A DNA stretch of 64,000 nt. Origin: Bryoerythrophyllum caledonicum (taxonomy: Eukaryota > Streptophyta > Bryopsida > Pottiales > Pottiaceae). A program made the translations under genes and the position numbers. The number at the start of each line of letters is the position of its first letter. Positions within the stretch are counted from its first letter, which is position 1. This document shows positions 1-46,760 of this stretch, in pieces. Where the stretch lies: the NCBI GenBank assembly GCA_963971425.1, contig OZ020524.1, positions 21,319,022-21,383,021 of the forward strand, read 5' to 3'. The notes under the pieces are model-generated. The model had not been told where the DNA came from, made no database searches, and was given only the letters and a program-made list of their open reading frames with translations.

Positions 1-3000
1 GTTGAGGAGTACTGGCGCCAGCGTGTGGAGTTGGTGACTGCGCTCAAGGAGAGTGCAGTTGCCCAACTGCCGACTTCCACCGAGGAGCCTAAGGTGGAAG
101 AGAGTCTCTTCGGGGAGGACTCCAGGGGCAAGGGTGTTGCCATTGTCGGCGAACGGGTTGGCATGGGGGCCATGTCCCGTTTGGCCGTTGCCACACGTGC
201 GGCATTGATGGCGGTTGGCGATCCGCCTGCCTTTGATCCTCTAGCGCAGTTCATGGCGCATTTAGAGGTGGAGTACGGGGGCTTCAGGCGTGATCAGATG
301 CAGCGCAGCCAGGATTTCCGCCGGGAGAAGGAGGATACCCCACGCACCATGTATACCCGGTTGGCACGGTTGTCAGCTGAGGCTGGTGATGTGTTCACGA
401 AGCGCCAACTGGTGAAGATCTTCATCTCCAAGTTGGACAAGAGGATGGTGGAATTGATTAGTCCACATCTTCTTTTTCGGTATCATGGCAACGCCACTTT
501 GGCTCAGGCGTTTGCCGAGGTGGAAGCGCTCGATAGAGCACTGGGCGTGAGCGAGGCCACTGATTTAGTGACGTCCCTATTAGAGGCTCCCAAGTCCAAG
601 AAGCTTGCCACCACCACCGGTAGCTTGGCGGAGGCACAACCTGAAAAGGTTGTGCATTGTTGGGCTTGTGGGGAGGCTGGTCACACCAAGGGGAACCCCA
701 ACTGTTCCAAGAAGAAGGGGGCAGGGGCGGTGAAGGCCAAGCCCAAGACTGAGGCAGCCAAGCCTGCAGAGAAGGCTGGGGGTAAGGGGAACAAGCTTGT
801 GACATGTTCTCACTGTGGCAAGACTGGCCACACTGATGAGAACTGCTTTTCTCTTCATCCAGAGAAGCACCCAGGGTCTTCAGCTGTTGGATCGGATGCG
901 GTGAAGACACTGCAGGCTGAACTCGCGGAGCTGAAGAAGCAGATGAGTGCGATGGCTTCTTTGGGGCAAGTGGCAGAGACACGGCCTCCATCGAGGGGTC
1001 AGGGCTCATCTTCAGCCCTAGACCGCTACTTGTATGGCGCTTCAGGGGAGGTGGTGGCAGCAGTGGCCACTCGTGCTCAGACTATTGCACAAGTAGTGGC
1101 ACCTTCATCCTCTGTGCCGGTTAGTAGTGGCCGTCCACGCCACACGGGTTTGCCGGACCACATTGGTCAGTCCCGGCTACCACTTTCTTTTGGCATCGCG
1201 GATGCGGCTATTTCTACTGCCTCTCCCACTCCGCCCCCGATCCCACCGCTTTCTTCCACTCATGGGGATGCCGCACACACCTTGGCGTATAAGGTGTTGC
1301 AGTTGCCCGTGTTTGCCGGTGTGGATTTTCTGACACCGGATTTTCGACCATCTGGTGTATTCCACTTGGCAGGTAGTATGTTGGAGGGCAAGGTGCCCAT
1401 GCCTTCATTGGAGGTGTCGCAGGCGGTGACGGCTCCACCCACCGAGGAAGATTTGGTGGCATTGCGGGCCAAGTTGGCGGCGGAGGCTATTTCCGTGTTT
1501 GAGGCCAATGCCACTTCCACACCTACGGAGCAGTCCTCCGGGGATCAGTCATTGATCTCTGAAGTGGCTTATTTATCTGACATTGCAGCCCGGTCGGCAC
1601 GAGAGCGCCGTAGTGTGCGTCCAGGGGTTGTACGTTTGGTGAATGACGACGGAGTCATGGTGGTTAGCCGTACGGACGGCAACCCCACTCGAGCTACCCC
1701 CTTGCGTGTTATGTTGAACTCTGGAGCTCAGCCAGTGATGATTAGCAAGCAGCTAGCCCTGGATTTGGGTCTAGGTGCTTCGGACCTCGAGCCTTGCCCA
1801 TTTACGATTGTTACATCGGTTGGAGGCACGGAGAAGGCCATGGGGTACACCCGACATCCGTTACAGTTGATGTTCGGTGTCGGATCTAGTCCATTGTTCT
1901 CCCACGTATCCCTTCAGTGTGCTGTGACTGGTGCCACCAACTATGACATTCTGGTGGGTCAGCAAGCACTTTATCCTCTCGATTTTGGAGTGGATAATTG
2001 GACGGAGGAGGCCTGGATTAGGCCTGGGTGGTCTGCCGGTGATGGCAGAAAGGAGCTCATTCCGGTTGTCTTCGCAGCTAGCGCGGTGACTTCCACGGCG
2101 GACGCTATGTTTGGGTGCAGTGCGTTGGCTTCTGATTTGCCATGTGGTTCTACGCTTTTGGAGGAGACATATGCTTTTATGTCGGGGGTAGCGAAATCAC
2201 GGGAGTACATACCACTACAGATCCCTGCACGTCATTGCAAGGATCCAGTTCTGCCTTGGGGAACTCAGTTGGAGCTTACCCGTTGGAGTCGGGAGATTGT
2301 GGATGCTTTGGATGCTCCACATCTCTTAGTGGACTCTTCTACTCCGTTGTTGGCTCGTACAATTCAGTGGCAACCACCAGATGAGGATATTACCCTCGTG
2401 GAGCTATTTGCCGGTATCGGTACGGGGCTCGCGGCTGTGTTAGAAGCTGGGCTCAAGGTACGCCGGTACATTCACGTCGATAGTGGCTTTGCAGCCAATC
2501 GAGTTGCTCACCACCACATTCAGCGTCTTCTGGCGTTGTACCCGGAGCAGTTACCACCTTCTGCCATTCGGGGATGTTTTGGCAAGCTGCCACGTGATGT
2601 GACGTTGATCAGTGAGGATGATCTGCGCCGGTTAGGTCACGTGGACTTGGTGATTGCCGGATGGCCTTGCCAAGGCCATTCACGGGCGGGAAGTGGACGT
2701 GGCTTGGATGATCCACGGTCGGGTCTCTTTGCGGATTTGCTCAGGCTCGTCCAGTGGTGGATTACCCACCAATCGACACCACCGGGGTACATTTTTGAGA
2801 ATGTACCCCCATTGGGGGATACACGGACGAAAGTGCGTGAGGATGGGGCGTACATCCATCACCTTCTTGGTCCCCCTACGTTTGTTGATGCCGCAGCGTT
2901 GGGATCTTACGCCCATCGGCCACGTTGGATTTGGACCAACATGGCATCATCCACGACGCTCACTTCTGCACTTGCTCAAGTGCAACGGCCCGTGCGCCGT

Positions 3001-3639
3001 GAGGTCGATGACATTTTAGACGACCACCGTGTTTCCACGGAGGTTACGAAGGATGATGAGCCACCATTGGCGGTGGTCAACCGCGTTGGTTTCACTCGGG
3101 GGGCATTTCCCACTTTGATGTGCTATCCAGGCTCTTTTGCCTTCAGGTCACGCGGTCCGGGCATGGTTTGGGATTCTTCTTCCCAAACTTTCGAGGAGCC
3201 TTCTGCCGATGAGAGGGAGCGGGCGATGGGCTTTTTGACAGGCACCACCGCCGCACCGGATATCTCTGAGGGCCAACGCCGTTATTTGTTGGGTCAAGCC
3301 ATTGACCTCAACACCCTTGTTTGGATATGTGGCCTCTGTTTCGCCGCTCAACGCCGTTCGAGTGACCATCCACGCGTGCTGGGGGCAGACTCTGATGGTC
3401 AGGGGGCAGCGGTGCCACATCTCACAGAAATCGAGGAAGCGGAGTTGCTTTTTCGTTTGAAGAGGCATGCAGCTGAAGAGCTTCGTGCTCAGCGTGTCTT
3501 TGCAGCCTTGGCAGAGGACTTTGGCCGTGAGGATGCTCGGGATATATTTTCCCAGTTTTATCATCACGACACGGGATTTTCTATAGATCCTGTGAGTGAG
3601 GGGTGTGGGGGCATTAATGCCCTCTCTGCTACCAAGTAG
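1..3639 (+). CDS. Gag-protease-DNA methyltransferase polyprotein (5' partial)
   Basis: The frame is open to the left edge, so the start is outside the window. Residues are counted from position 25. Gag occupies about 1-200. Zinc knuckles lie near 212-227 (CX2CX4HX6C) and 261-274 (CX2CX4HX4C). A retropepsin-like region covers about 555-660; its active site reads NSG at 565-567 where DSG/DTG is expected. A C5-DNA methyltransferase covers about 789-1105: motif I FAGIG (795-799), motif IV GWPCQGHS with the catalytic Cys at 882, motif VI FENVPP (924-929), motif VIII-like HRPRWIWTN, and motif IX/X-like ERERAMGF and LLGQA. The motif order is not rearranged and the HRPRW block resembles DNMT3. The ORF ends with TAG at 3637-3639 and pol continues in the same frame. 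Confidence is high for the domains and lower for catalytic activity. Confidence 0.93.
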   Translation, partial: VEEYWRQRVELVTALKESAVAQLPTSTEEPKVEESLFGEDSRGKGVAIVGERVGMGAMSRLAVATRAALMAVGDPPAFDPLAQFMAHLEVEYGGFRRDQMQRSQDFRREKEDTPRTMYTRLARLSAEAGDVFTKRQLVKIFISKLDKRMVELISPHLLFRYHGNATLAQAFAEVEALDRALGVSEATDLVTSLLEAPKSKKLATTTGSLAEAQPEKVVHCWACGEAGHTKGNPNCSKKKGAGAVKAKPKTEAAKPAEKAGGKGNKLVTCSHCGKTGHTDENCFSLHPEKHPGSSAVGSDAVKTLQAELAELKKQMSAMASLGQVAETRPPSRGQGSSSALDRYLYGASGEVVAAVATRAQTIAQVVAPSSSVPVSSGRPRHTGLPDHIGQSRLPLSFGIADAAISTASPTPPPIPPLSSTHGDAAHTLAYKVLQLPVFAGVDFLTPDFRPSGVFHLAGSMLEGKVPMPSLEVSQAVTAPPTEEDLVALRAKLAAEAISVFEANATSTPTEQSSGDQSLISEVAYLSDIAARSARERRSVRPGVVRLVNDDGVMVVSRTDGNPTRATPLRVMLNSGAQPVMISKQLALDLGLGASDLEPCPFTIVTSVGGTEKAMGYTRHPLQLMFGVGSSPLFSHVSLQCAVTGATNYDILVGQQALYPLDFGVDNWTEEAWIRPGWSAGDGRKELIPVVFAASAVTSTADAMFGCSALASDLPCGSTLLEETYAFMSGVAKSREYIPLQIPARHCKDPVLPWGTQLELTRWSREIVDALDAPHLLVDSSTPLLARTIQWQPPDEDITLVELFAGIGTGLAAVLEAGLKVRRYIHVDSGFAANRVAHHHIQRLLALYPEQLPPSAIRGCFGKLPRDVTLISEDDLRRLGHVDLVIAGWPCQGHSRAGSGRGLDDPRSGLFADLLRLVQWWITHQSTPPGYIFENVPPLGDTRTKVREDGAYIHHLLGPPTFVDAAALGSYAHRPRWIWTNMASSTTLTSALAQVQRPVRREVDDILDDHRVSTEVTKDDEPPLAVVNRVGFTRGAFPTLMCYPGSFAFRSRGPGMVWDSSSQTFEEPSADERERAMGFLTGTTAAPDISEGQRRYLLGQAIDLNTLVWICGLCFAAQRRSSDHPRVLGADSDGQGAAVPHLTEIEEAELLFRLKRHAAEELRAQRVFAALAEDFGREDARDIFSQFYHHDTGFSIDPVSEGCGGINALSATK
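2389..3330 (+). other. C5-cytosine DNA methyltransferase domain inside the gag ORF
   Basis: The domain holds AdoMet-binding motif I (FAGIG, 2407-2421), the catalytic PCQ loop (TGC for Cys at 2668-2670), the ENV motif (2797-2805), an Arg-rich motif VIII-like block just after 2900, and a C-terminal LLGQA block. It could methylate cytosine using S-adenosylmethionine as donor. It lies in frame between protease and reverse transcriptase with no stop or frameshift, so it is translated as part of the element's polyprotein and is not a host gene caught in an insertion. Whether it acts de novo, and on which sequence context, cannot be read from sequence. Confidence 0.9.
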
Positions 3640-3645
3640 CAATCA
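3637..3645 (+). promoter_or_regulatory. Candidate UAG stop-codon readthrough site between gag-DNMT and pol
   Basis: UAG is followed by CAAUCA, which fits the UAG-CAR-YYA context known from tobamovirus-type leaky stops. Gag and pol are in the same frame and the pol frame stays open straight after the stop. No ATG occurs in pol before the reverse transcriptase core (first Met in VMPSKK, near 3988). Readthrough is therefore the simplest way to make pol. Confidence 0.7.
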
Positions 3646-6600
3646 CCGGCCGTGCCGGTACGCGGTGAGTCTTCTACGGTGGAGAAGGAGACCACGGAGT
3701 TTGATGATTGGCCTTTGGATTTGGGGCCACATCTTACTGGTGCCGAGGCACGAAGGGTACGAGCGTTTATACGTTCGTATCGTAGTTGTTTTGCCTTTAG
3801 TCTCCATGATTTGGAGGGCTATAGAGGCAAACCAATTCACATTCAGTTGGAGGATGACCACCCGATCTTCCGACGATCGTACAAACTTAGTCTCTCTGAG
3901 AAAGTTGGGGTTCAAACTCGTTGTCAGGAGTTGTTGGACGCCAGCTTGATTGAGCTCTCTAACGGCGAGTACGCTTGTGCCACGGTGATGCCATCGAAGA
4001 AGGACATCTTTGGCAACTGGACGGAGAAGCGGATGTGTGGGGATTATAGGCCGGTCAATCGTAAGACCAAGTCGGATCGGTATCCCATGCCCACGCCAGA
4101 GGAGTTGTTTGATGCAGTGGGACACGCCAGAGTATTTAGTACTCTGGATTTGCGGTCCGGTTACCACCAGTTACCATTGATGGTGGAAGACCGGATGAAG
4201 ACCGCGTTCTGGGGAGTTGATCTGGATGGGAGAGATCAGCTCTACCATTGGAAGTTTCTCCCATTTGGCCTCAAGAACGCACCCGCTGAGTTTCAGAGGG
4301 TGATGGACCGGGTGTTGACCGGTTTACCGTTTGCCCGATGCTACATTGATGATGTTATCATTTTTAGTAGCAGCCCACAGGAGCATGTGAGGCATCTTCA
4401 GGCGGTGTTTCAGAGGTTACGGCAGTGGGGATTGCGCTTGCACCATGGCAAATGCAAATTCTTCCATGACCGGTTGCCATACTTGGGACATATGATTGTT
4501 CCAGGAGGTCTTGGCGTGCAGCAGGCGAAGGTTGACGCGCTGCAGAAGATCCCAGCCCCAATCGACGTGTCGCGGCTTAGAGCTTTTCTTGGCCTGGCGA
4601 ATTACTATCGCCGGTTTGTCAAGAACTTCAGCTTGATTGCCAAGCCGTTGACTATTCTCACGGGGAAGGATCAGCCATGGATTTGGGGACGGGAGCAGCA
4701 GCAGGCGTTTGCTACTTTGAAGCTGAAGCTCGGTTCAGCGCCTGTACTGCGGCGTCCAGATGCTACACGGCCTTTCCACTTGCACACAGATTGGAGTGCA
4801 GTAGGATTGGGAGCCGTGTTGACTCAAAAGGATGATGAAAGACGGGAGTACGTTGTGGCGTTCGCTTCTAGGAGCAACAACAACGCGGAGTCCAACTATT
4901 CGTCCTATGAGGGGGAGGCCTTGGCCGCGGTTTGGGCCATAGCTCATTTTAGGCCCTACTTGTATGGGCAGCGTTTTACTTTGGTGACCGACCACCAGCC
5001 TTTGAAGTGGCTCATGGAGTCTGACAAGCTTACTGGCAAGCTTGCCAGGTGGGCTTTGTTGCTCCAGGAGTATGATTTTGAGGTTGTACACCGGGCGGGC
5101 ATCACGAACTTGGATGCGGATGGTCTATCTCGCAATCCAAGTCCATCGGAGGAGGATTTGACTGGTGTCAGGTGGCATGGGGACTGTGACAGGGAGTCAG
5201 TCCCGGGGTGGCATGCAGCAGCCTACCTCACATTGATGTCTGGATCCACATCGACGTTGCCTGATATGGCAGCTGATGAGGAACCAGACAAGGCCCAGGT
5301 TGTTAGCGACGTGTGGGAAGACGTTCCAGTCTTGCACAAGCTGCAACATGGCACACTTCCGCCCGCTCTTTCGGCTATGGAGCGCGATCGAGTTGGACAC
5401 CGGATAGCGAGGTTCCGTTGGGAGAACGGCCTTCTATTTCGGTTGTGGCCGGATGGAACTAGGCGCATAGTTCCCAGACCGGATCAGAGGGCTTCGTTGG
5501 TACGGCAAGTACACGAAGATCTTGGTCATTTTGGTGTGCGGCGGACTCATTCGATGTTGCGCAGTCAATATTGGTGGACCGGCATGTATCAGCAGGTGGC
5601 CATGTACATTTCACGGTGTGAAGTCTGTGATCGGGTCAGATCCAGCTTCAACACATTGTCACCACAGTTGCAGCCTTTGCCCATCATGGATTTGGGCTAC
5701 CGTTGGTCTCTGGATTTTGCCGGGCCACTTGTTGTCACCCCACGTGGAGCCAAGTACGTGTTGGTGATGGTGGAGCACTTCAGCAAGTGGATTGAGCTTG
5801 TGGCATTACCACAGAACTCCTCGGAGTTGGCGGCCATGGCATTCCTTGACCGGGTGCTCGCTCGTTTTGGAGCCCCAGCTGAGGTGTTGACTGACCAAGG
5901 GCGTGAGTTCCTTGGTGCTTTCGAGGCTTTGTGCACCAAGGCTTTGATTGACCACCGTACGACTTCTAGAGATCATCCGGAAGCGGACCGTTTGGCGGAG
6001 CGTGTGGTTCAGACCGTCAAGCGTGGACTACGAAAGTATGGATTACTTCAGGGTGGCCACCGTGATTGGGATCTGATGATACCATGGATCGCCATGGGAT
6101 ACCGGTTTAGCCGGCAGGCCTCTTTGGCCGCTTTCAGTCCGTATCAATTGTTGTACGGACGGGAGCCGATTCTACCCAGTTCTGTATGGGAGAAGTTGGC
6201 CCCAGTTGTGGACTTGGATGATCCAGAGGTTTGGATCCAGTGTCTGCGTGACCGAGCGGAGTTCTTCAAGCGGGCCATGCCAATGGCCATGGAGAATTTA
6301 TCCATCGCTCAGCACCGCGACACATTACGGTACGCTCGCATTCGCAGCGGCGCTTATCGACCTCAGTTGCGGCGTTTCTCCACTGGAGATTACGTTTATT
6401 TGCAACGTGAGGCGCCTACGACGTTAGACGTCAAGGCCGGGCGCACCATTCTTCGTGTGAAGGATGTGTTGCCCAGTGGCATCTTGTTGCTGGAAGGCAA
6501 AGATGGCCGGGAGTGTCGGGAGCACTCCAAGAACTGCGCGCCCTGCCATTTGCCCATTGATGGCTCCGTGCATCCTGAGTTGGCCGTTGTGCCACAGGGT

Positions 6601-6783
6601 CTTCCGTGTTATGTGTGTGGTGAGAAGAAGGATGCGGCTACTATGTTGCTTTGTGACCATTGCCAGCGTGGTTGGCATATGGCTTGCTTGACGCCGCCTC
6701 TCTCTACTCTACCGTCCGGGGATTGGACTTGCCCTCGTTGTCGGAGGTCTTCGAGTCACGTTTCACCCGATGAAACGGCTTGA
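3640..6783 (+). CDS. Pol polyprotein: reverse transcriptase, RNase H, integrase, PHD finger
   Basis: The frame opens directly after the gag stop and ends with TGA at 6781-6783. Reverse transcriptase has a DLRSGYHQ block and the YIDD active site at 4342-4353. RNase H shows TDWSA, EGEALAAVW and TDHQPLKW, then DADGLSR. Integrase has an N-terminal HHCC zinc finger (HEDLGHFG, then CEVC) and a core with LDFAG, LTDQGREF and the Glu in AERVVQTVK, giving D,D,E. The C terminus is a C4HC3 PHD finger (6607-6741) instead of the chromodomain usual in plant chromoviruses. No usable start codon precedes RT, so expression probably needs readthrough. No frameshift was seen. Confidence 0.95.
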   Translation, partial: QSPAVPVRGESSTVEKETTEFDDWPLDLGPHLTGAEARRVRAFIRSYRSCFAFSLHDLEGYRGKPIHIQLEDDHPIFRRSYKLSLSEKVGVQTRCQELLDASLIELSNGEYACATVMPSKKDIFGNWTEKRMCGDYRPVNRKTKSDRYPMPTPEELFDAVGHARVFSTLDLRSGYHQLPLMVEDRMKTAFWGVDLDGRDQLYHWKFLPFGLKNAPAEFQRVMDRVLTGLPFARCYIDDVIIFSSSPQEHVRHLQAVFQRLRQWGLRLHHGKCKFFHDRLPYLGHMIVPGGLGVQQAKVDALQKIPAPIDVSRLRAFLGLANYYRRFVKNFSLIAKPLTILTGKDQPWIWGREQQQAFATLKLKLGSAPVLRRPDATRPFHLHTDWSAVGLGAVLTQKDDERREYVVAFASRSNNNAESNYSSYEGEALAAVWAIAHFRPYLYGQRFTLVTDHQPLKWLMESDKLTGKLARWALLLQEYDFEVVHRAGITNLDADGLSRNPSPSEEDLTGVRWHGDCDRESVPGWHAAAYLTLMSGSTSTLPDMAADEEPDKAQVVSDVWEDVPVLHKLQHGTLPPALSAMERDRVGHRIARFRWENGLLFRLWPDGTRRIVPRPDQRASLVRQVHEDLGHFGVRRTHSMLRSQYWWTGMYQQVAMYISRCEVCDRVRSSFNTLSPQLQPLPIMDLGYRWSLDFAGPLVVTPRGAKYVLVMVEHFSKWIELVALPQNSSELAAMAFLDRVLARFGAPAEVLTDQGREFLGAFEALCTKALIDHRTTSRDHPEADRLAERVVQTVKRGLRKYGLLQGGHRDWDLMIPWIAMGYRFSRQASLAAFSPYQLLYGREPILPSSVWEKLAPVVDLDDPEVWIQCLRDRAEFFKRAMPMAMENLSIAQHRDTLRYARIRSGAYRPQLRRFSTGDYVYLQREAPTTLDVKAGRTILRVKDVLPSGILLLEGKDGRECREHSKNCAPCHLPIDGSVHPELAVVPQGLPCYVCGEKKDAATMLLCDHCQRGWHMACLTPPLSTLPSGDWTCPRCRRSSSHVSPDETA
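6607..6741 (+). other. PHD zinc finger at the C terminus of pol
   Basis: Cys-X2-Cys, Cys-X2-Cys, His-X2-Cys and Cys-X2-Cys fit the C4HC3 order, with the GWHMACL and DWTCPRC blocks typical of PHD fingers. PHD fingers often bind histone H3 tails. Placed after integrase it may steer insertion, as chromodomains do in chromoviruses; this role is inference. Confidence 0.85.
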
Positions 6784-7100
6784 ATTCCTCATAGACTTGT
6801 CATTGTGTGGTGCGTTGCCATCCAGTTGGAGTTCCTGGTTTCGGTTCAGGGATAGGCAACGTGGAGATTGACCAAGGGATTGGCAATAAAATTGCCTAAG
6901 GCGATTAAAGATGGGGCTCACATTGTACCCGGCCTACCATCTCTTTGTTACTTCTTCATATACTTATTGATTCGATGACGGCGACATCTTTGGCTGGATG
7001 CGTACAGTTGTTGCAGCGACATCCCCTTGGCGTTTAGTCTTATTAGTGTTGTTTGGTCCTAGCTGGATAGAGGGTCTCTTTATCCGCTAGGGGGGGCACT
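6784..7100 (+). other. Untranslated internal region and polypurine tract of the retroelement
   Basis: No ORF. The segment ends in a G-rich run (seven G at 7090-7096) directly before the TG that begins the LTR, the expected place for the polypurine tract that primes plus-strand DNA synthesis. Confidence 0.65.
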
Positions 7101-7564
7101 TGAGGGTGTATTACGTATACTTGTTGTAGTGTATGTTTTTCGTTTATTTGATGTTGGTTAGGACTCTCGATCTGTTGTGGTTATCGATCTTTCTTTACAC
7201 GACAGCTGTCACGGGACGTGGCATCGAGGGTCTCTCCGTATCGTAGATTTTAGCGTAGATTAGTTTGTTACTAATCTACGTGTGTTTAGGGACGAACGGC
7301 GGCGCACCGTTTTCATCCGTGGATGATTTTCATCCACTTAGGGTTGTATGCGTGTGCGTATAGTGCCGCACACGTCCTTGACTTGACGTCTTTGTCAAGT
7401 CAAGCTTTGTGAGTGTGTTTAGAGAGTGATTAGTGAGTCCTTGCTTGTTAGTGATGGTTTGTCATTAGTAAAGACTCTACATTCTCTAGTTCCACTCGCA
7501 CTCGTTGATTCTTCCTTCGTGGAGTGCGAGACGCTTGACTACTTGTGATTCATACATCTTTCCT
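7101..7564 (+). repeat. 3' LTR of the DNMT retroelement
   Basis: Starts TGAGGGTGTATTACG right after the polypurine tract. The first 105 bases recur at 7565-7669 with one difference, giving a repeat offset of 464 bases. The true end may be CATACA at 7556, leaving 8 bases before the next copy, or 7564. The 5' LTR is outside the window, so ends and target duplication cannot be checked. Confidence 0.8.
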
Positions 7565-7669
7565 TGAGGGTGTATTACGTATACTTGTTTTAGTGTATGT
7601 TTTTCGTTTATTTGATGTTGGTTAGGACTCTCGATCTGTTGTGGTTATCGATCTTTCTTTACACGACAG
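7565..7669 (+). repeat. Truncated second LTR copy in tandem
   Basis: 105 bases match 7101-7205 except for one base (G versus T in the ttgtNtag stretch). The copy stops at GACAG, where unrelated SWIM-gene sequence begins. It could be a remnant of a neighbouring element or of an LTR-LTR recombination. Confidence 0.85.
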
Positions 7670-9660
7670 GTTCCATGAAAAAACACAACTTGCAAGAGAC
7701 AAACTTCAAAAGCTTAATGGCAGATAGCGCAGGAGCGGATTGGCACGCCGTCCGGCGAGTTTATAGCTGCGGCGATAAGGACAAGCCTATGGAAAACAAA
7801 GAACGGACTTGTTTATTTGATTGGATCAAATGTCTTCAGCGAGCCACCACCAGAAGCATTATACTCGGCTTCAAAGAGCAACACATTGTCCTTTGCAAAA
7901 TCTGGAAGAATGCATCGACTCAAGAGGAGGCTGAAGCGCAGTTCATTGTAATTTATGGGTGGTGGGTGTCATCTGGTGCCACAACCGAAATTGGTTGTCG
8001 TTCTTTGGAGCATTGGATGGCATTCTGGCACTTCCGATATTGACAATGGGGAGGTGCTACGCAACTTGTAAGCACTCTTCACCCTTTACTTTTAATGACT
8101 ATTGTGTTCAATATAAGATAGACCTCTAATCATTTTTATGACATGTCTTATACCTTCTCAGGATCTCACGCTTGACGAGATTGCCGACATGCCTTCTTGC
8201 AACCTTGCGGAAACAGTCAACAATCAGTGGCTGCAACAATCTAGAAATACAATGACATGTTTGTACGTGGCAACCGTTGAAGACCTCATCCGTGCTTTCA
8301 TGCAAATTCCCATGTATCAGCCCTAGTTGAAAGGTGGCACATCTAGAAAGGGTCCGGACAATTATGGTACGCTTTGTTTGCGGTCTACGCAACGCTCAGG
8401 TGACCCTAAACTCATTGCAAAGGTAATTGTTAGTAATTTTTTTAGGGCCAGGATCTACTAACGAGGATGGGCAGCTTAGAAGGTGTAGAATTTTAGGGTC
8501 CATCAAGCGCAAGCTTGACATGCCACTTAGGCCGGCCCATGATTCCGACAAATCTGATATGGTAAATTATTCTATCCTCCATGATGGCCGAAGGGTGACT
8601 CAAGTGCATATTGAAGAGGCCCTCATTGGACAAGACTCGAGAGTCGAGCATACAACATCCATTGTGGAATCGGATTGTGGTCCATCAAAGTGGCACATTG
8701 TCCCCCTCTCAAAAAAGTCTGCTTGAAAATGTCAAGCCTTAAAAGCTTATAGTGGTGAGCAATGCAACAATAAAGTTGGGCGTGGGAGGTACTGGACTCC
8801 AATCCTCACATATGCCAGTATGAAGAAAGATTAGAGATCGCCACAAAATGTCTCAACTGAATTATGGTTCTCTCGTGATGACATTAGTCAAAGAAACCGT
8901 TTGTAGATGATTGGTATGTGTTCCAATGATGTGGCATGTGAAGCTTGAAACTAATTTAACAGTGCAGCAGGTACTAGCCTTGGAAGGAGTAGGTTTCTAG
9001 CTACAACAGGGTAGAGCTCTTTCACCACGAAGACAATTCAAAGTGTCTATGGACATGCCCCTTCTATGGTCTAACTTCCCCGTTTCGGCAAACCCAAACT
9101 CTTACCATACAACCTACGCCCAACCTTAGTGTTGTATTGCTCACCACTTTAAGCTTGCAAGGCTTGGCATTTTCGAGCAGACTTTTTTGAGAGGCGGGCA
9201 ATGTGCCACTTTGATGAACTACAATCCGATTCCACTACCCATTCTGACGAACCCAAATTCTTACCACACCTTTCGAAACGTCTACGCGATTTGTAGAACA
9301 ACAGATGTTTCAACAACTGAGCAACGCAACAAGTGGTCAAACGCCACTCTTGTGAATAATTGTTATGTCTCCAACCTGTATACCATACAGTATCTAGGAT
9401 GGGGATGCGTTATCACTCTTGACATAGGAAAGAACAAGTCCTATTGCATCACCTTCATAGACCTTCCGAGGTGTTTGTGCCTTGAATTTTTGAAAATACA
9501 ATCAGAGGCGTTGGAAAAGAAGGGACAATGGAAGTATTGCAAGCATGTGTATTACATCTTACGTTACCTTTGCTAAATGGATTACAAGGAGAACTTATTT
9601 ATGCATGCTCCAAGCTACAGCTTCAATGAAGTCATGCGGATTTTAGAGCTTGTGAACATT
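7670..9660 (+). pseudogene. Decayed SWIM-zinc-finger, transposase-like gene
   Basis: Three coding-like blocks lie in order. One is open to 8043 and contains LFDWIKCLQ and EAEAQFIVIYGWW. A second at 8160-8420 (LDEIADMPSCNLAET) is broken by a stop after MYQP. A third at 9340-9660 has CLCLEF followed by KYCKHVYYILRYLC, i.e. CxC and CxH as in SWIM zinc fingers, then HAPSYSFNEVM past a stop. SWIM fingers occur in MULE-type transposases and some host proteins. Stops between and within the blocks show that it is not functional. Identity beyond the SWIM motif is uncertain. Confidence 0.5.
8661..9239. repeat. Inverted repeat, arms about 8661-8775 and 9125-9239
   Basis: The arm starting GGAATCGGATTGTGGTCC is found again in reverse complement at about 9125-9239 with scattered differences. 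Both arms contain the CAAAGTGGCACATTG and GGTGAGCAAT blocks. The spacer is about 350 bases. The structure lies inside the decayed SWIM gene and suggests a local inverted duplication. Confidence 0.7.
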
Positions 9661-17171: not shown

Positions 17172-20100
17172 ATGATGTTACAAAAGATGGCGTCTATCGA
17201 CGCCCAAATGCGGCTGCTTGTGCCGAGAAGAGTGTCGGAAGATGATAAGCTGATCGAGTACGACGCGCTTCTGCTGGATCGGTTCCTTAATGTCCTTGAA
17301 GAGCTCCACGGAAGAGAACTCAAGGACAAGGTAAGTAAAGAATTACACGTCATCTCTATTGGCGCTTTTATTTTTTGCTGTTCAGATAAAGGTTTTCTTA
17401 GCGATATCAGTACGTTCAGTGGGGCCGAGACGAACCCTTTTCTTGAATAGCGAAGATGTAGACTCCTAATTGATCAGTCACCATTATCTTTCAAATATGA
17501 AGGAAGTTCGTTATCTAGATGCTGTAATTGGGATCAAGGTTTGTAATTTACGTCTGAGAATCATGGGCGTCTAGTTGCAGATTTTATATATTGCTTTGAA
17601 TTTTAGAAAAAGGTGCTATGAGTGTAGAAGTCTGCACGACAAGTCGTATTTACACGAGGTTTCTGAGCGCTAGCTCTTTGAGATTCATTTTGTAAGCCCT
17701 GAGATGCACTTAAGGCCATAGTTGAAGGCAGTCAAGTTAGCTAATTTAACGCAATGGTTATTCTAGTTTAGTAAGCGTTATGCGCCTACGATAATCGTTT
17801 ATTGTCTGAATGTGACTTGCTCGTGTGATCGCCTCAGATTCAGAATCTGTACGAGTTGTCCGGCCTGTACTCCAAAAATGACGGTCGTGGTGATGTGGAT
17901 AAGCTTCAGCAGCTTGCTGATCTGTTCAACGACCTTGAACCTGGTGACAATATTGTGGTGGCTAGTTCGTTCTCGCACATGCTTAATCTTGGTAACTTGG
18001 CTGAGGAGGTCCAAATTGCGTTCAGGCGGCGTGTCTCGAATGCTAAGAAGGGTGACATTGGAGACGAGAATAGTGCCTTGACTGAATCAGACATGGAGGA
18101 GACATTCCGTCGTCTGATCAAACTGTGCAAGAAGACTCCTCAGGAGATTTTTGAGGCACTTAAAGACCAGACTGTGGACTTGGTCTTAACTGCACATCCT
18201 ACTCAATCTGTACGCCGGTCCCTCCTCCAAAAGCATTCTCGGTAAGCAATTTGATTTCGCTCTGTAGCAGATGATTGTCGTGAGTTTCTTTGTAAGCAAA
18301 CAATTTGGACATCTTTTAGAGTCTGTGCAGTTGAAAAGAGAAAGTGTCGATTATACCCAGCTGTTGAAGCAATACTCTGTAGATGGTAGTAGCTTTGTAA
18401 GCCAAGAATCTTGATAGTACTCTTTACGCGTCGGCCTATTTTGATCTTCGTTAGGCCCGAAGATCACTGAATTGCATTTTGGTACCATGATTTTGGAAAA
18501 TTCATTTGAATTACCTCAGCGGTACCTTAATCCTGATGGGCGGAAATTTGGCAGAATTCGGAACTGTTTGTCGCAGATGTACCAGAAAGATGTTCTTCCC
18601 GATGAGAAGAAGGAACTCGACGAAAGTCTTCAACGAGAGGTGCGTTGATTTGTTGGAGTGTTGAGAACAGACCTTGACTGTTCAAATTGAGTTGTATATC
18701 ATGGCCCTGTTTTAGCTGATCTATGTCCAATAGCGACCTGACAGTAAGCAGTCGATTATTGTACGCATTTGATCTGGTGTCGGTCACTTTCTAAGCGTTT
18801 AGTGGGAAATTTTAAGGTTACTTACACTTTGTCTTTTGGACAGATTCAAGCCGCCTTTCGTACCGATGAGATTAGACGATCACAGCCAACACCTCAGGAT
18901 GAAATGCGTGCGGGCATGAGTTACTTCCATGAAACCATATGGAACGGTCTTCCGAAGTTTTTGCGCCGTGTTGACACCGCTTTGAAGGCAATTGGTGTCA
19001 ATGAGCGTCTACCACACAATAGTACACTTATCCAATTTTCGTCTTGGATGGGTGGTGATCGTGATGGTAAGCCTTGGCTCTTATAACGAGAATAGACTCC
19101 TCTGCACTATAAGCTTCTGTGTATGCACGGCTTTGAGAATAGCAACTTGTGTTTGGTCCTGTTTTACAATCTATTCCTATATCTATGATGTAGGAAGGAG
19201 AAGCGACTCTTGTAGTCTGACCATATCGTTGATACTACATCGAGGGTAACTTTGCACATTTATCTTTGGTCAGTGATGTCCTTGAACGCCAGCTTACCAT
19301 GATTGAGTGCTCCAGTTACACTAAACAGTAACTATAAAGGTAAAGTGTTGGAGATGGTATTATAGGCGTGCAAACCCTTCCATTTGACCGTATCTTTACA
19401 CATGGAAGCAAACAACTGATTGATGACGGCATCCTGTCTCTAAAGCGCTGAGTTTCGTGGTGACTCGACGTTCGTGTAGACGACCACAAAACTTAGAATT
19501 GAACCAAGGGATATTCCAGTTCATGTTGCATAATCAATGTTGTCGGAGCTTGAAAGTTGTCATGTGTGTAGACATTTGTTAAGGATACACCAAAACTGCG
19601 CACGTCCATGACTTACAAGGTTGAGTAGGATGCCAGTTCTATTAGTCTGTTACATGACCTTGTCTCTGTAGGCCAACTGTTTTAGGTGTATTGCAGGTGA
19701 CGTTCGGTTGTTGGGTACTTCGACTTATTTCGTTTGTTTTAAATATGTGCCAGGCAACCCACGGGTGACGCCCGAAGTGACCAGAGATGTCTGCCTATTA
19801 GCTCGTCTGATGGCGACCAACCTTTACTTCACGCAAATTGAGGATCTCATGTTTGAGGTTCTTAAATTCTAGCTTCACCTCGTGGTCTTTCTAGCGTTTG
19901 GAGGAAAGTGATCTGTTATTAGTGCGGAACCATTGGTTTTGAATATTTCAGCATTACTAACTCTTTCTACATCACGTTTGCATATTTAGTTTGAACTTGT
20001 GATGTTTACTTTTGTGAGCTTGTTGCAGCTATCAATGTGGCGTTGTAGTGACGAGCTGAAAGCGAGGGTGATGAAAATTGAGTCTCTGCACCGGAAGGAG

Positions 20101-23100
20101 GCAAAGCATTACATTGGTATCTCCTTGTTCCGATGCCACTTTCTCATGTTGGAATTACATAGTTCTGATTACACCCTGTTATCGCGTGGTTTAGTAGGAT
20201 GGGTAGTCTACTGGATGGATTCTTGCTACAGTTCTGGCGTATATCTCATACTGACGGAGATACTATGTTCTACATGAGTCAGAATTCTGGAAGCACATTC
20301 CACCCAATGAGCCGTTTCGGGTGTTGTTGGGGGACATGCGTGACAAATTATACAACACGCGTGAACGTATGGGGCAGTTGTTGGCCAATGGCAAGACTGA
20401 TATTCCAGTTGAAGATACTTTCACCGACTCTTCACAGGTTTGTACAGATCTTACGAACATATATCAATAAGCCGTCAAGTTGATTGATAGAGAATTTTAA
20501 ACTCAGCGCATTCTAACTTGGTTGCTCTACACTTTTGTTCTAGATCTTGGAGCCGTTGGAGCTGTGCCATCGATCGCTTTGTGAGACTGGAGACAAACCC
20601 ATTGCGGATGGTAGTCTCTTGGACTTCATGCGTCAGGTGTCATGCTTTGGCCTTGGCCTGGTGAAGCTCGACATCCGTCAGGAATCTGATCGGCACACTG
20701 ATGTTATTGATGCCATCACCAATCACCTTGGTATCGGTTCCTACCGCAATTGGTCGGAAGAGCAACGTCAGGTGTGTACTTCCACAGTTCGGATTTGTTA
20801 TTTACAACAAGATCAAAGTATATGAACGGGGAGGATAGATAAATACCCAATTTAGCTTTTTTGTTCAGTGTTCTTTCTAAATCTAACTTCTACATGTGTT
20901 TCTCAAGATTTTTCGTTTCTTAGTAGTTCAAAATAATTCGTGATATGTCCCGAACAGCATCGCAAACGAAATCAGCGTATCGTAGATGAGTCTCGCAGTG
21001 ATGCAGATGATTCTAATCTTCTCACGCTTGCAATGAACGTATGTTGTCTTTAGATTTTGGATTGGTCCAACTGTATTAACCCACAACTCAATTTTTTCTT
21101 CAGGAATGGCTTCTCAATGAACTTCGTGGGAAGCGTCCTCTTTTTGGAGCCGACCTACCCATGACGGAGGAAATTAAGGATGTCTTAGACACCTTCAAAG
21201 TGATTGCTGAGCTGCCATCAGATTGCTTTGGAGCTTATGTCATTTCTATGGCAACCGCACCATCAGATGTTCTAGCAGTTGAGCTTTTACAACGTGAATG
21301 TCGGGTTACGAAACCACTGCGAGTGGTTCCGTTATTTGAGAAGCTGGCTGACTTAGAGGCTGCCCCTGCGGCCCTGTCGCGTCTGTTTTCGATTGATTGG
21401 TATCTGAATCGCATCAATGGGAAGCAGGAGGTATGAGACTGCTCTTAAATGTTATTTCGCTGTTAGTTCCTACTTCGACCCTATCTTGGGCAAGAACTCT
21501 ATCGTCACTGGGATCTTTTAATGTGTAATGATATCAGTCAATTGAGCGTTCAATATCAGTGATAGTAACCATCCCTTTTTCCAAATACTAATTCACCTTG
21601 GTTTCCGTTCACAGGTTATGATAGGCTACTCGGACTCAGGGAAAGATGCAGGGCGCCTGTCAGCAGCGTGGCAAATGTTCAAGGCACAAGAGGACTTGGT
21701 CAAAGTGGCGAAGCAGTATGGAGTTCGTCTCACCATGTTCCATGGTCGGGGAGGTACTGTGGGTAGGGGCGGAGGCCCAACACATCTTGCTATTTTGTCC
21801 CAGCCTCCAGACACGATCAATGGCTCGTTACGAGTGACAATCCAAGGAGAAGTTATTGAGCAGTCGTTCGGAGAGGAGCATCTGTGCTTCAGGACAATGC
21901 AGCGCTTTACAGCGGCTACTCTGGAACATGGAATGCATCCCCCGATCGCCCCCAAACCCGAGTGGAGAGAGATCATGGATGTGATGGCCGTGGCATCCAC
22001 CAAAGAGTACCGCTCCATTGTTTTCCAGAATCCCAAGTTTGTGGAATATTTCCGTGCGGTGAGTCCCCGAGAATTGTGTGTTTCCCGTTTGAGGGCTTTT
22101 ATCGCTGTAAAGTATGCGTGATCCTTTGGTGTGGGTCGTCTTTCTAGCAGTTCCTATTACGGGTTGGTGATTATCGATAGGTCATGCAGATTGTATTCCG
22201 TACGTCTCCGCCTCCTTGATTTCCATTGGCTCTGATGCGGGGCACTTTCTGTACATGTTTGGCAGGCTACACCGGAGCTGGAGTATGGGCGCATGAACAT
22301 TGGAAGCCGCCCATCCAAACGCAAACCCAACGGAGGCATTGAGTCGCTGCGAGCCATCCCCTGGATTTTCGCGTGGACACAGACACGCTTCCATCTTCCA
22401 GTTTGGCTTGGCCTTGGGTCTGCTCTGAGAGAGACGCTGGAGACTAAACCCGGGAACATCGCCATTCTCCGCCGCATGTACAACCAGTGGCCCTTTTTCC
22501 GCGTGACCATCGATTTGGTGGAGATGGTGTTTGCCAAGGGAGATCCCCGCATTGCTGCTCTGTATGATAACCTGCTGGTGTCAGACGAGCTGAAGCCGCT
22601 TGGAGAGGAGCTGAGGCGCAAGTACGACGAAACCAGAAACCACCTCCTCCGGGTCCGTGCTCTCTCCTTCACTAGCTTGTTTTCGTATTTGAAGAACATC
22701 GATTGAATGGTTGTCTACGTTGTGGAGCCTTTATTTGCGACGAAAATTGCTACATGTGATCACTTATCATTGTACACATTTTGCTTTTCAAGACTTCCAG
22801 ACTCACTCGTTTTTTACGATCAAATTCTGCAGGTTGCAGGCCACGAGGACATTTTGCAGGGCAATCCCACACTGAAGCAACGCCTGCGGCTTCGAGAGCC
22901 CTACATTACTGCACTTAATGTTCAGCAGGCCCTGGTGCTGAAGAAAATGCGAGACCAGAGCGCCCAATTCTGCGCGTTTGAGAACGGTCAATCCGATATA
23001 CCCAAATCACCCAAACGCGCTGCAGAGCTGGTGGAGCTGAATCCAACCACTGAATTTCCACCGGGACTGGAGGACACTCTCATCCTCACCATGAAGGGTA

Positions 23101-23129
23101 TCGCCGCCGGCATCCAGAATACAGGATAG
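17172..23129 (+). CDS. PPC: Phosphoenolpyruvate carboxylase, plant type (13 exons, 993 aa)
   Basis: Carboxylates PEP to oxaloacetate in the cytosol. Exons: 17172-17330, 17838-18241, 18555-18639, 18844-19066, 19754-19857, 20029-20116, 20283-20437, 20544-20771, 20958-21038, 21104-21430, 21615-22058, 22266-22652, 22833-23129. Phases close to 994 codons with stop. The N-terminal SIDAQMR block keeps the kinase-target Ser at residue 8. Catalytic LTAHPTQ has His 173; [11 protein letters not shown] and [13 protein letters not shown] follow; the C terminus is QNTG, as in plant-type enzymes. Ala 802 in IFAWTQ is the C3-type residue (C4 maize has Ser there). Exon 9 adds 27 residues (483-509) absent from the Arabidopsis protein as I recall it. 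Without it the length is 966, the usual size. Confidence 0.97.
20958..21038 (+). other. Extra phase 0-0 cassette exon in PEPC
   Basis: 81 bases flanked by AG and GT, open in frame, encoding a charged 27-residue stretch that starts HRKRNQR and includes DESRSDADD. It lies between SEEQRQ and EWLLNEL, which are joined directly in flowering-plant PEPC. Skipping it keeps the frame, so it may be alternatively spliced. Confidence 0.65.
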
Positions 23130-24406
23130 AGTTCAGGTATTCACCGCAGCTTCCTTTGCCTTATCTTACCTGAGCACAACTGCCGTACCAAAATATACAT
23201 ATGCCTGCCTTTAATTCAGCTTTCAGTCTTCAGTTGGCTTCAATCTCAGATCGCTACTCCTGAAATGACGTTGTGAGCGCTGTCCGTGCTGCGCAGGCAC
23301 GATCGGAGGAAGCCCCGAACCTCCTCCGAATGTGAAACTACGTAACAGCAATCAGCGTTGCTGTGATCGCCTTGGTCCCGGCCTTCGTCACCTGATGTGC
23401 GCCAGCCGCCATTTACCGGAAGTGAGATTCCTCACAAGAACGCTTTTGCTGGCCATGTTTTCGTTGTGGTCAGGAAGAGATACAGTACACGCTCCCCAAA
23501 CACTTGTGGTTGATTTGGGTGCTACTGATGTTCGAGTAGCTAGATTGTGTCCAGTAGTCTATAATTCGCAGACAATGTGGATGGTGGCTTGACCACCACC
23601 AAAGCCGAAGTTTTTACTAGGTCTAAATAATCTTCCACAATCATGTAATACAGGGAGGCGGTCTTGACGCCAGTTGTGCCTTCCTGTGCTGTCGTGAATC
23701 AGTAAACCTTTTTCCTAGACGTGTGCCATGTGCTTGCAACTCCAAAATGCTTGCCATGTAATCTAGGGCTTTTTCGGGATGGATCGAGGGCCCAGACACG
23801 GAGATTCGTGTCCACAACTTCTCTGCGCGCCGTGGCTGATCGCTCGTTACGCTGGTGGTGTAGTAGTTCATCTCCACCACGCAGGAGAAGGAGCATACAT
23901 CCGCGGGTAAAGACACACTCTTGGTTTCCAGTGCCTCTACCATACTGACCGTCGCACTATTTATGAGCCCACACTAACCATAAACTTTTCACTCACCCGA
24001 CGACATTTGATTCCTTACTCAATCAGTGCACAACAGGAACAATGCGTCATGGCATCCAACTGAAGCTATCGCTGTCGTCTGATCTCATACCCCAAGTCCC
24101 ATCTCACCTTTCGTCCCTTTCTAACTCCTATTGTTTTCCTCCGAAGATTGTACATACAGGGAAAATAGAGAAAGAGGTCATGTGTGTATGGCAGGAGGTG
24201 GGATGGAATGCATCACTCAGCTGTAGTTTAGGTCTTGGGTCATGTGCTCATTGTGTGAGTAGGGTTTCGGCATCGTGGAATTAGCTAATTCTTAATCTTG
24301 GTGAGGTTTTCATTGTTTGCACGAGTAGGGTTTTGGAGGGCGAGCATCTTGGAGATTTTTCAGCTGTAGTTTTGAGAGGTTGATTGGTCATCACGATGTG
24401 GAGTCG
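23130..24406. other. Spacer between PEPC and GT14 gene
   Basis: The first few hundred bases are probably PEPC 3' UTR, and the last few hundred the promoter and leader of the next gene. Short ORFs here show no known domain. No repeat was noticed. Confidence 0.5.
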
Positions 24407-26401
24407 ATGGATCATCACCACAACGTCGGCCTGGAGCGGATCAAGAGCAGGGCGGCGTCTCTGATCACTCGCGACGTCGCGACAGATGATGCACCTCCGT
24501 CGACGGCGCCACCTCGGATTGATGGATCCTCAGGAGAGAATTCTTCCGTGAGGGTTGAGTTTTGGGACCGGATCAAGCCGCGGAGGAGGCTGTGTGTGCA
24601 AGCGATGAGGAGGAACCAGGATATTGTGATGAGGATGGAGCGCAAGCGTCTGGTTCCGTCCGCTATTGTGTTCGTCTTGCTGCTTCTTCTGGGATCGTTC
24701 AGTTTGTCGCGCCACTCTCGCGTGATCTCCGTCGTGACCCCACTTCAGAGCCTGGAGAGCAGCCACGCAGCTCTCGAGATCGACGTTGACGCTGTAACGG
24801 CCATGGAGGTGTTGCCGCCTCCGCCCAGGCTCGCCTACTTGATCTCCGGCACGAGGGGCGACGGGCGGCGGATGAAGCGGACGCTGCAAGCGCTCTACCA
24901 CCCGCGGAACTACTACTTGCTGCACTTGGACCTGGAGGCGCCGCCGTGGGAGCGCCTCGAGATCGCCCGCTACGTCAAGGGCGAGGAGGTGTTCCAGCAG
25001 AACGCGAACGTGTTCGTGGTGGGGAAGGCCAATCTGGTCACGTACCGGGGCCCGACCATGGTCGCGGCCACGCTGCATGGCGCCGCGATCTTGCTGCGGA
25101 AGGCCAAGGACTGGGACTGGTTCATCAACTTGAGTGCCGCGGATTACCCTCTTGTCACTCAGGATGGTGAGTCGATGTTGAAATAGCTGACATGCTGATT
25201 AGCGTTACATGTTTTGTCAGTGATCTCGAGAGCTGCGTGATCTGTTTGCAGATGTTTCAGAAGTTGCAGATGTGGTGGCTCGTGTTTGCAGATGTTGTAA
25301 TTACCATTTTATGTGGTCTTCATCCTGCTAGGTTGGAGTGCTAGGTTGGCACCTTGGTGACTGATGCATATTGTTGTTCTGGTTGCAGATCTTCTGCACG
25401 TTTTTTCTTACTTGCCGAGGGATTTGAATTTCATCGAGCACACCAGCGACATTGGCTGGAAAGAGTAAGTGTATTTTTCCATTGACCACTTGTGAATTCA
25501 TCATCACCAAGGAGATATGGATTAGGGGTAATCATACATATCAGTCAGAAGCAGGTTGTGTCTTTTGAGCTCCGCTAACTAGATCATGGGAAGGCACGAT
25601 GATAAGAATTGTGGAAAGAATGTGCTGTGGATATATTGATAGCACGGTTTGCGATGTGGCCAGGTTCCAGAGAGCGAAACCTATCATCATCGACCCGGGG
25701 TTGTATCAGAACAAGAAAACCGACATCTTCTGGGCAACTCAAAGGCGAGCTGTGCCAACGGCATTCCGACTGTTCACAGGTCATAAGCAAGCAGCGTTTC
25801 TCTCACATTAACCTAGGGTTTTCCTCATGTTCAGTCCATGAAAGAGTACTTGTGACTGATTCCTGGTCCGTGGATCTGCTCAGGCTCGGCGTGGTTTGCG
25901 CTATCGCGCGCCTTCATGGAGTACTGCAACGTGGGGTGGGAGAATCTGCCGCGCACGCTGCTCATGTACTACACCAACTTCGTGTCGTCCCCGGAGGGCT
26001 ACTTCCACACGGTGCTGTGCAACAGCCAGGAGTTTCGCAACACCACCGTCAACCACGACCTGCACTACATCAAGTGGGACACACCGCCCAAGCAGCACCC
26101 CAACTCGCTCACCCTCGCCGACATGCCCAACATGACCCGGAGCGGCGCGGCATTCGCCCGCAAGTTCGACATCGACGACCCGGTCCTGGACGAGATCGAC
26201 GCCACGCTCCTCAACAGGAAGCGCGGCGCGTTTACGCCCGGCGGGTGGTGCATTGGGAGCCGGAGGAATGATGATCCGTGCGCTTTGAGGGGAGATCATG
26301 GTCTGTTGCGGCCCGGCCCGGGCGCGCGCCGCTTCGAGGATCTCGTCGTGCGCTTGCTGTCACCCGCCGCATTTCGGACGCAACAGTGTGTGAGCGTGTA
26401 A
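24407..26401 (+). CDS. GT14 core-2/I-branching-like glycosyltransferase (4 exons, 489 aa)
   Basis: Exons 24407-25166, 25389-25464, 25664-25779 and 25884-26401 close in phase to 490 codons with stop. A basic N-terminal tail is followed by one membrane anchor (about residues 83-100), typical of a Golgi type II protein. The catalytic region has LAYLISGTRGD, LHLDLEAP, DWDWFINLSAADYPL, FIEHTSDIGW, IIIDPGLY, SSPEGYFHTV and TPGGWCIGSR, the block order of plant GT14 proteins, some of which are arabinogalactan glucuronosyltransferases. The first in-frame ATG was taken as start. The exact donor and acceptor sugars are not readable from sequence. Confidence 0.93.
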
Positions 26402-26900
26402 TCTGGTGGCCTTGTTCTTATCTAAACTCCTAATCCTTTCTTCAAGTTTCTTTGGTTTAGAAGCTGTCTTGAGCACAGGAACATCAGTGTGCATATTACA
26501 AGGTTTTAGTTCACCGACCATGTTCAGAAATTGGATCTGACGGCTCATTGTATACTACCAAACCAGAAAGAGAGATGTTGATCATAATTTATCATAATTT
26601 GGAATGAAAGTCATGTTGAACAATGATCGGTAATTTGATGCCATGAGCACACACACACCCAAGGCTAACTTGGTATTTGCTCAGTCAGGGCTGCACACAC
26701 GCCTCTAAAGTTCAGACTATACAATGGATGATTATATTATTCTTTTAGCAAATCATAATAACATATTGATAAATCAATGACGGAAACAAAAATAGATCCT
26801 GAAAAAAAATAAACAATCAAAGAATAAAAGAAACTCATCAAATCACCCCTTCCTCTTGTGCTCTAACTGTAGCTAAAGATAGTCTACAGCAGAACTGGAA
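26402..26900. other. Spacer after GT14 gene
   Basis: Probably 3' UTR then AT-rich spacer. A short CACACACAC run lies near 26650. No gene seen. Confidence 0.5.
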
Positions 26901-26984
26901 TCATGCCCCATAATTGACGCCATCACAATCATGCCCCATAATTGACGCCATCACAATCATGCCCCGTAATTGACGCCATCACAA
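26901..26984 (+). repeat. 28-bp tandem repeat x3 upstream of metallothionein
   Basis: Three units (26901-26928, 26929-26956, 26957-26984) are identical except for one A-to-G change in the third. Each contains AATTGACGCCATCAC, which includes TGACG, the core of as-1-type bZIP sites. The array lies about 200-280 bases before the TATA box, so it may be a regulatory element. Confidence 0.9.
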
Positions 26985-27182
26985 AAGGAGAAGGTGCAGT
27001 TTCATTCCTCGTATCAAGCATTCGTGAAGGGGCTTCGGGCAGTTACAATCCAATGGCTGCAGCTTCTTCCGTGCATCTCAAGTCCTATCAAGACAAACAA
27101 GTTGTTGAGAGAGATGACTTGGGGTGCAACCAAAAGATTCCAACTGGTTCCGTGACGCACACACAAACTGTCTAGAAAGAGG

Positions 27183-27188
27183 TATAAA
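27183..27188 (+). promoter_or_regulatory. TATA box of the metallothionein gene
   Basis: TATAAA 98 bases before the end of the 5' leader. Transcription would start near 27213, giving a leader of about 70 bases. Confidence 0.7.
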
Positions 27189-27285
27189 GAAGGGCCTGTG
27201 CTGCACTGAACCCTCATAACCTGCACCTTCCTTCCGTGCTCAAGCTCTTCCGTTGTCTAGCTCTCACTTCAAGCTCTTGACAACC

Positions 27286-34987: not shown

Positions 34988-35183
34988 ATACCTTTCTCGG
35001 CCTTTTGGCTAAGATCAAGTGTAGTATCTGTTCTTATCAGTTTAATATCTGATACGAGGGACATCGTCCCTCATGATATTAATCTAATTTTTCTCGGGTG
35101 CGGGTCCATCCGGTAGCTTGCTGCCCGGACTCGCGAGCGTCGCCTTGGCCTTGCACTACTTCCTTGGCCGGCGCAGCCCTCCC
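34988..35183 (+). ncRNA. U2: U2 spliceosomal snRNA
   Basis: Starts ATACCTTTCTCGGCC as plant U2 does. The branch-point-pairing GTAGTA is at 35021-35026. The conserved TTCTTATCAGTTTAATATCTG block follows, then stem IIb (GAGGGAC / GTCCCTC), the Sm site AATTTTTC at 35086-35093, and two 3' stem-loops, the last with TTGCACTACTT in the loop. The end is set at 196 nt, the usual plant length, and is approximate. U2 pairs with the intron branch point in the nucleus. The weak TATA leaves a small chance that it is a pseudogene. Confidence 0.88.

Positions 35184-45947: not shown

Positions 45948-46760
<813 letters not shown>

Follow-up and report, generated by a model that had tools for sequence, protein, structure and literature searches.

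A DNMT3-type methyltransferase in a split-repeat Ty3/gypsy retroelement family of the moss Bryoerythrophyllum caledonicum

Cytosine methylation is a host tool against mobile elements, so a retroelement that keeps a de novo-type cytosine methylase under selection is a standing puzzle. Such an element lies in a stretch of 64,000 nucleotides (hereafter the window) of the moss Bryoerythrophyllum caledonicum (assembly GCA_963971425.1, contig OZ020524.1, positions 21,319,022 to 21,383,021 of the forward strand), and we asked how its methyltransferase (MTase) could serve it. The combination of split repeats, a DDE integrase and 4-bp target duplications raises the further question of how the element is copied and inserted. 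Judged from sequence, the best explanation overall, to which we give a probability of about 0.6, is that packaged MTase methylates the element's complementary DNA (cDNA) before insertion, with low readthrough of a UAG codon and self-priming of reverse transcription. By its domains and its copies, the element belongs to a Ty3/gypsy-type retroelement family that is present in many copies in the moss. With at least 116 MTase matches in one moss, the puzzle becomes testable in bryophytes, a group for which genetics and methylomes exist.

The MTase (window 2365–3351, on the plus strand like all features of this element) was recognised by Pfam DNA_methylase (PF00145) at residues 800–943 of the first open reading frame (ORF1; E 1.5e-11), downstream of the protease and CCHC matches. 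Motifs I, IV (PCQ), VI (ENV), VIII, IX and X follow each other in order, unpermuted. A profile of 11 related MTase cores, compared with the PDB, matched DNMT3A at 2.3e-23, 4onj (labelled DNA methyltransferase, which we take to be a plant DRM) at 1.4e-12, DRM2 at 4.4e-10, HhaI at 2e-8 and DNMT1 at 0.75. By catalytic-domain similarity the element MTase is closest to DNMT3, and closer to it than to DNMT2. Neither a PWWP nor an ADD regulatory domain was reported by Pfam in the part of ORF1 inside the window; the PHD finger of the element is in ORF2. The initial annotation had staked its reading on the Cys and ENV residues being kept across copies, and they are. In 28 copies read (the window's own, seven young ones and 20 picked across the identity range), the catalytic Cys of motif IV (GWPCQG; 2668–2670) is kept in all 28, and in motif VI (ENV; 2797–2805) the Glu is kept in 27 and the Asn in 28. 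Among 37 relatives, the motif VI Glu-Asn pair is present in every one and the motif IV Cys in 35, the other two being Marchantia gene models that skip the motif.

Further copies of the domain, for which the initial annotation had proposed a search, are numerous. A search of the 437-Mb assembly with the MTase returned at least 116 matches that carry the domain (77–100% identity), 63 of the 116 without and 53 with an in-frame stop; since all copies were found through this query, the counts cover MTase-bearing matches. Over eight young copies, the ratio of nonsynonymous to synonymous changes (pN/pS) was 0.44 for gag, 0.73 for the protease, 0.20 for the MTase, 0.09 for reverse transcriptase (RT)-RNase H and 0.16 for integrase. 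These counts pass over codons with stops or gaps as well as bases that are insertions against the window's own copy, and so ignore frameshifts. A more distant copy, L085 (CADCWO010000201.1), is 88.7% identical over 7.4 kb and is filed under a cyanobacterial metagenome-assembled genome. It is most likely a moss contaminant, because the contig is a plant retroelement of this MTase-bearing family. (A protein filed under Candidatus Obscuribacterales, P0158, may be a second contaminant case.) Against L085 the corresponding substitution ratio (dN/dS) was 0.06 for the MTase, 0.04 for RT-RNase H, 0.02 for integrase, 0.17 for PHD and 0.16 for gag. Against eight stop-free, more diverged copies of the assembly the MTase gave 0.11–0.25, and a comparison of dN/dS across copies, proposed earlier as a check, therefore returns 0.06–0.25 wherever stops are absent. 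Five of 12 older stop-holding copies gave 0.10–0.36; the lowest value of that older set, 0.10 at dS 0.97, belongs to L037, which has one stop. Judged by these ratios, the MTase has been under purifying selection.

The initial annotation placed the MTase motifs between the protease and the RT of a Ty3/gypsy element, within 1–3639. The order and the motifs stand, whereas the RT lies in the next ORF, past a UAG, and the range is too short: from C12:21317009, 2,013 bases before the window, the element reaches to window 7668, a span of about 9.7 kb. Within the window, ORF1 runs without interruption from base 1 to its stop codon at 3637–3639. It contains a gag region with zinc knuckles (1–1680, the 5' part lying upstream of the window), where the frame is open and a weak CCHC match, below its cut-off, falls at residues 268–282; scanned alone, the gag region gave no CCHC match at E 0.001. 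The N-terminus of gag is visible in homologues, for instance P0001. The aspartic protease follows (residues 566–618; 1696–1854), with Pfam matches spanning residues 566–613 (PF13650, E 0.016; PF13975, E 0.057) that are both below cut-offs; PF13650 is assigned to the homologues P0010 and P0013. ORF2 (3640–6783), in the same frame as ORF1, encodes RT (4021–4497; PF00078, E 7.6e-31), RNase H (4759–5073; PF17917, E 9.3e-38), a DDE integrase with an H2C2 zinc domain and an rve core (5479–5979; PF17921, E 4.5e-17 and PF00665, E 8.6e-14) and, C-terminal to the integrase, a PHD finger (6607–6741; PF00628, E 1.2e-10). The solved PHD fingers that it matches include those of CHD4, PHF12, an MLL3 homologue, KDM5B, UHRF1 and ATXR5. 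The order gag, protease, RT, RNase H, integrase with an rve core is that of Ty3/gypsy, the protease and CCHC matches being weak.

The two ORFs are separated by a UAG stop followed by CAA UCA (3637–3645), between the MTase and the RT. TAG was found in all 26 readable junctions of the 28 copies (L038 and L050 have no readable junction), with CAATCA behind it in 25 and CAGTCA in one, and L085 also has TAG-CAATCA. In 12 older copies this 9-mer had one change in 108 sites, against 353 in 3383 (10.4%) in the flanks (binomial P 0.0001, for copies that share ancestry and sites that are not independent). The database proteins P0001–P0006 stop 83–95 residues past the MTase, before any RT, so that the ORF break seems to characterise the near family. 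In the sections of PMC2754532 covered, CAR-YYA after UAG is described as essential for tobacco mosaic virus (TMV)-type readthrough in plants, which reached 32% for TMV-TAG in one assay. UAG-CAR-YYA is common to these type I signals and to the moss element, whose candidate signal differs in sitting in a retroelement, between MTase and RT (PMC2754532). Because the motif is that of the TMV-type signal, gag, protease and MTase would be produced in larger amounts than RT and integrase.

The repeats of the element do not form two complete terminal long terminal repeats (LTRs). The inserted unit has the structure B-ORFs-A-GC-B-A: a 356-bp B without preceding A at the 5' end (C12:21317009–21317364), and A1 (106 bp; 7099–7204), GC, the internal B2 (7207–7562) and A2 (7563–7668) at the 3' end, both A repeats ending in GACA. 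The element begins with TGTC and ends with GACA, that is TG...CA with a short target duplication, whose 3' copy is GGTT at 7669–7672. In a 13-copy set, both ends were recognised in ten copies and an exact 4-bp target duplication in nine of these (C9_13.29 has none); a second set of ten copies gave both ends in seven and the duplication in all seven. Together, 16 of the 17 two-ended copies, among 23 examined, are flanked by exact 4-bp duplications; the remaining six were excluded because an end was unrecognisable in the piece used or, in C3_21.8, the 5' side was not covered. The spacing of the ends is that of one permutation in all 17. The 5' B and internal B are 98.6–99.7% identical within a copy, more than to any other copy, in six of six rows, by a margin of one base in L011 (98.8 against 98.6) and clearly in L016 (98.6 against at most 93.0); L013 (gap in the piece) and L014 (no 5' B) were omitted. 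As the B repeats are most alike within a copy, one of them seems to serve as the template of the other in every cycle. The lineage may escape programs that look for two flanking LTRs and target duplications at their outer ends.

How such a unit might be primed is suggested by the 13 nt directly after the 5' B, ACTTGACAAAGAC, identical in six of six copies and exactly complementary to positions 182–194 of B, where the putative self-primer GTCTTTGTCAAGT (7388–7400) is likewise kept in six of six. The bases adjoining ACTTGACAAAGAC vary in three copies, downstream in L010 and L015 and upstream in L016. In L085 the last C of the 13-nt site is T and its partner G is A, and the pairing is kept since the change is two-sided. 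A polypurine-tract-like AGGGGGGGCA (7089–7098) stands directly 5' of A1 in six of seven further copies and in L085; in the seventh, L013, it is one G shorter. With AGGGGGGGCA directly before A1 and the primer site after B, the purine-tract-to-primer unit would be A-GC-B, and the ends used by the integrase would lie inside it.

This arrangement bears on the form of DNA that is inserted. In seven of eight copies the 3' B|A joint matches what a blunt joining of the putative primer-site end to the purine-tract end would give (for L014 without sight of its own 5' B); L010, the eighth, carries a single additional C, and L016, which has a different B end, obeys the same rule. The joint suggests a joined intermediate. 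Such an intermediate would be a linear cDNA with an LTR of A-GC-B, closed at B|A and cut by the DDE integrase at the palindrome GACAGCTGTC, a scheme that we regard as possible but doubtful. TGTC and GACA do abut at A1/B2 with two spacer bases (GACA-GC-TGTC, 7201–7210), forming a perfect palindrome in seven of eight copies and in L085. L085 also closes upon itself: its 9,285 bases have 127 identical bases at both ends and contain each repeat once. It may be a circle; yet a repeat assembled from short reads could collapse into the same form, so that L085 is no proof of a physical circle. A symmetric two-LTR circle would have two such palindromes and should yield two permutations, and the fact that all 17 copies show just one argues against it. 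A tyrosine recombinase was looked for as well; in the parts of ORF1 and ORF2 inside the window Pfam shows rve and no phage-integrase domain.

Two protein searches, each among about 8000 scored candidates, gave 37 and 153 matches (120 of the latter listed), and the sources named among the matches listed include Marchantia polymorpha, Calypogeia fissa, Sphagnum troendelagicum and Closterium. Neither list of matches names a Klebsormidium protein. In a tree, 31 family MTases formed one clade (100/99), with P0031 and P0034–P0037 as a separate branch within it (99/95); the outsiders were one human DNMT3A row, in pieces, and bacterial-type rows, none being a plant DNMT3. All five proteins of the separate branch have a PHD finger. 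The MTase lies between RNase H and integrase in P0031, P0034 and P0037, and before the RT of a single ORF in P0024, so it occupies at least two positions in the relative set. Motif IV of P0031, P0034 and P0037 reads PEC or FEC instead of PC. P0011–P0014 and P0016 form a second clade of MTase elements, 56–59% identical to the window, in which ORF1 ends in a short tail such as GNGASSSN. The spread of relatives over Marchantia, Calypogeia, Sphagnum and Closterium makes an old lineage within the streptophytes likelier than a recent acquisition, horizontal transfer being the alternative. Between the new host and the retained ancient lineage proposed at the outset, each part holds in some measure: a moss host is new in the literature covered, and the bryophyte and Closterium relatives speak for the old lineage. 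Tentatively, and rather as a possibility than as a probable history, this may be an old plant retroelement lineage, reaching from streptophyte algae to mosses, whose replication would differ from that of LTR elements, with a packaged DNMT3, self-primed cDNA and a DDE integrase that acts on a joined (circular) intermediate at ends inside the repeat unit.

In the explanation that we prefer, the UAG would be read through at low frequency, and the amounts of MTase produced and packaged would be like those of gag instead of pol. The 5' end of the element RNA would anneal to the site behind the 5' B and so prime reverse transcription, the packaged MTase would methylate the resulting cDNA, and the DDE integrase would then insert it; the PHD finger at the C-terminal side of the integrase may direct insertion toward a chromatin state. 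Several results weigh against this explanation. The CpG observed/expected ratio of the element is 0.78, within the 0.62–0.86 of seven neighbouring 8-kb blocks, and there is thus no mutational trace of heavy self-methylation. In six middle-age copies, the UAG 9-mer had no change in 54 sites and the flanks 50 in 1800, which is not significant (P 0.22). P0024 and P0029 carry MTase and RT in a single protein, P0030 does so by its listed domains, and P0025, a Marchantia model, passes into RT-like sequence at its C-terminus; judged from these proteins, the UAG break is not general among relatives. The pN/pS of the PHD finger was 0.82 over the eight young copies, at few sites, against the 0.17 given above for L085. 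The MTase-bearing open frame is 1243 aa in the window's own copy and 1353 aa in several others, so that gag of this copy appears interrupted upstream of the window. Finally, the Klebsormidium MTase was inactive in yeast, a result that its authors call inconclusive, according to the sections of PMC5890265 covered.

Other roles for the enzyme have to be weighed against cDNA methylation. The MTase could act on host chromatin, restraining new copies or competitors, or silencing the element after insertion and so sparing the host. Slowed retrotransposition to the benefit of the host is one option raised in the covered part of PMC5890265, the PHD finger, whose solved matches are chromatin proteins, offers a tether, and many decayed copies persist, to judge from the stops in 53 of 116 matches. 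However, the UAG leaves the MTase with gag and separates it from integrase and PHD, a placement that would suit a role in the particle better, and we consider the chromatin role unlikely. It is more improbable still that the domain is kept as a nucleic-acid-binding or RNA-methylating module and not as a DNA methylase. The MTase adjoins gag, and RNA methylation has been proposed for SymbioLINE-Dnmt (PMC5890265, sections covered), but the retention of the motif IV Cys in all and of the motif VI Glu in 27 of the 28 copies, together with the closer similarity to DNMT3 than to DNMT2, argues against such a module. That the family is an ordinary LTR element, with the A part of its 5' LTR deleted and a chance mutation to UAG, has almost no probability left. 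Such 5' losses do happen in old copies, yet the target duplications flank B...A2 exactly at different sites in the 16 copies mentioned, the B repeats agree best within copies in every row, and all readable junctions have the UAG; these counts refute it unless every copy is mis-assembled.

Elsewhere in the window lies an uninterrupted gene for 257 aa (45987–46760). Among 120 matches listed for it, the top species named are mosses, Ceratodon purpureus (84%) and Physcomitrium (79% and 74%), followed by Marchantia (71%) and Sphagnum (69%), and matches listed without a species name reach 89%; this supports the land-plant host considered in the initial annotation. Further host genes lie in pieces at 17829–34313, namely phosphoenolpyruvate carboxylase exons from 17.8 kb to at least 22.1 kb, a Core-2/I-branching glycosyltransferase at 24.4–26.4 kb and an M20-type peptidase/amidohydrolase at 32.9–34.3 kb. 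A U2 small nuclear RNA gene (34988–35181; 173.8 bits) is closely followed by a 29-bp tandem array with CCCTAA (35363–35655). A degenerate Gypsy-like element occupies 55239–61484 on the minus strand, with RVT_1 at 58571–59242, bounded by direct repeats (55239–55667 and 61057–61484) that are 81–88% alike.

The initial annotation rightly stated that retrotransposons with DNA methyltransferases have been reported from dinoflagellates and a charophyte: the covered sections of PMC5890265 describe the Symbio elements and KnitGypsy-Dnmt3 of Klebsormidium nitens. MTase-bearing Gypsy elements are therefore already known from Klebsormidium, and the mosses are a new host group. Among the best-matching papers listed from the open-access PMC library, which defined our scope (subscription papers lying outside it), we found no moss or liverwort case of an MTase-bearing Gypsy element, and for such elements no UAG, PHD, target duplications with a DDE integrase or self-primer pairing. 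The text of PMC5890265 contains none of the terms PHD, direct repeat and Marchantia, and the plant survey PMC6317226 contains neither methyltransferase nor PHD. According to a 2019 article (PMC6338049, part covered), land plants such as tracheophytes lack transposons with DNA methylases, a wording too broad for mosses and liverworts.

By its description, KnitGypsy-Dnmt3 resembles the moss element in its Gypsy domains, unrearranged DNMT3-type MTase and DIRS-like repeats, and its MTase is also under purifying selection; it differs in that the MTase is said to lie in the Pol polyprotein ORF, whereas in the moss element the UAG groups it with gag, and the sections of PMC5890265 covered hold nothing on readthrough or target duplications for it. 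SymbioDIRS-Dnmt3 and SymbioLINE-Dnmt of dinoflagellates are also retroelements with C5 MTases, but they belong to other classes (with a tyrosine recombinase, or of the LINE type) and are reported there as unrelated to the Klebsormidium element. In the self-priming Gypsy elements Tf1/sushi and Tcn1, described among LTR elements in the covered part of PMC6317226, a putative self-primer site replaces the transfer RNA site, as it may in the moss element. Ngaro, PAT and VIPER, of the DIRS order, share the split direct repeats, with A1 at the 5' end and B1-A2-B2 at the 3' end (PMC6681497, part covered); they encode a tyrosine recombinase, whereas the moss element combines its split repeats with a DDE integrase and 4-bp target duplications.

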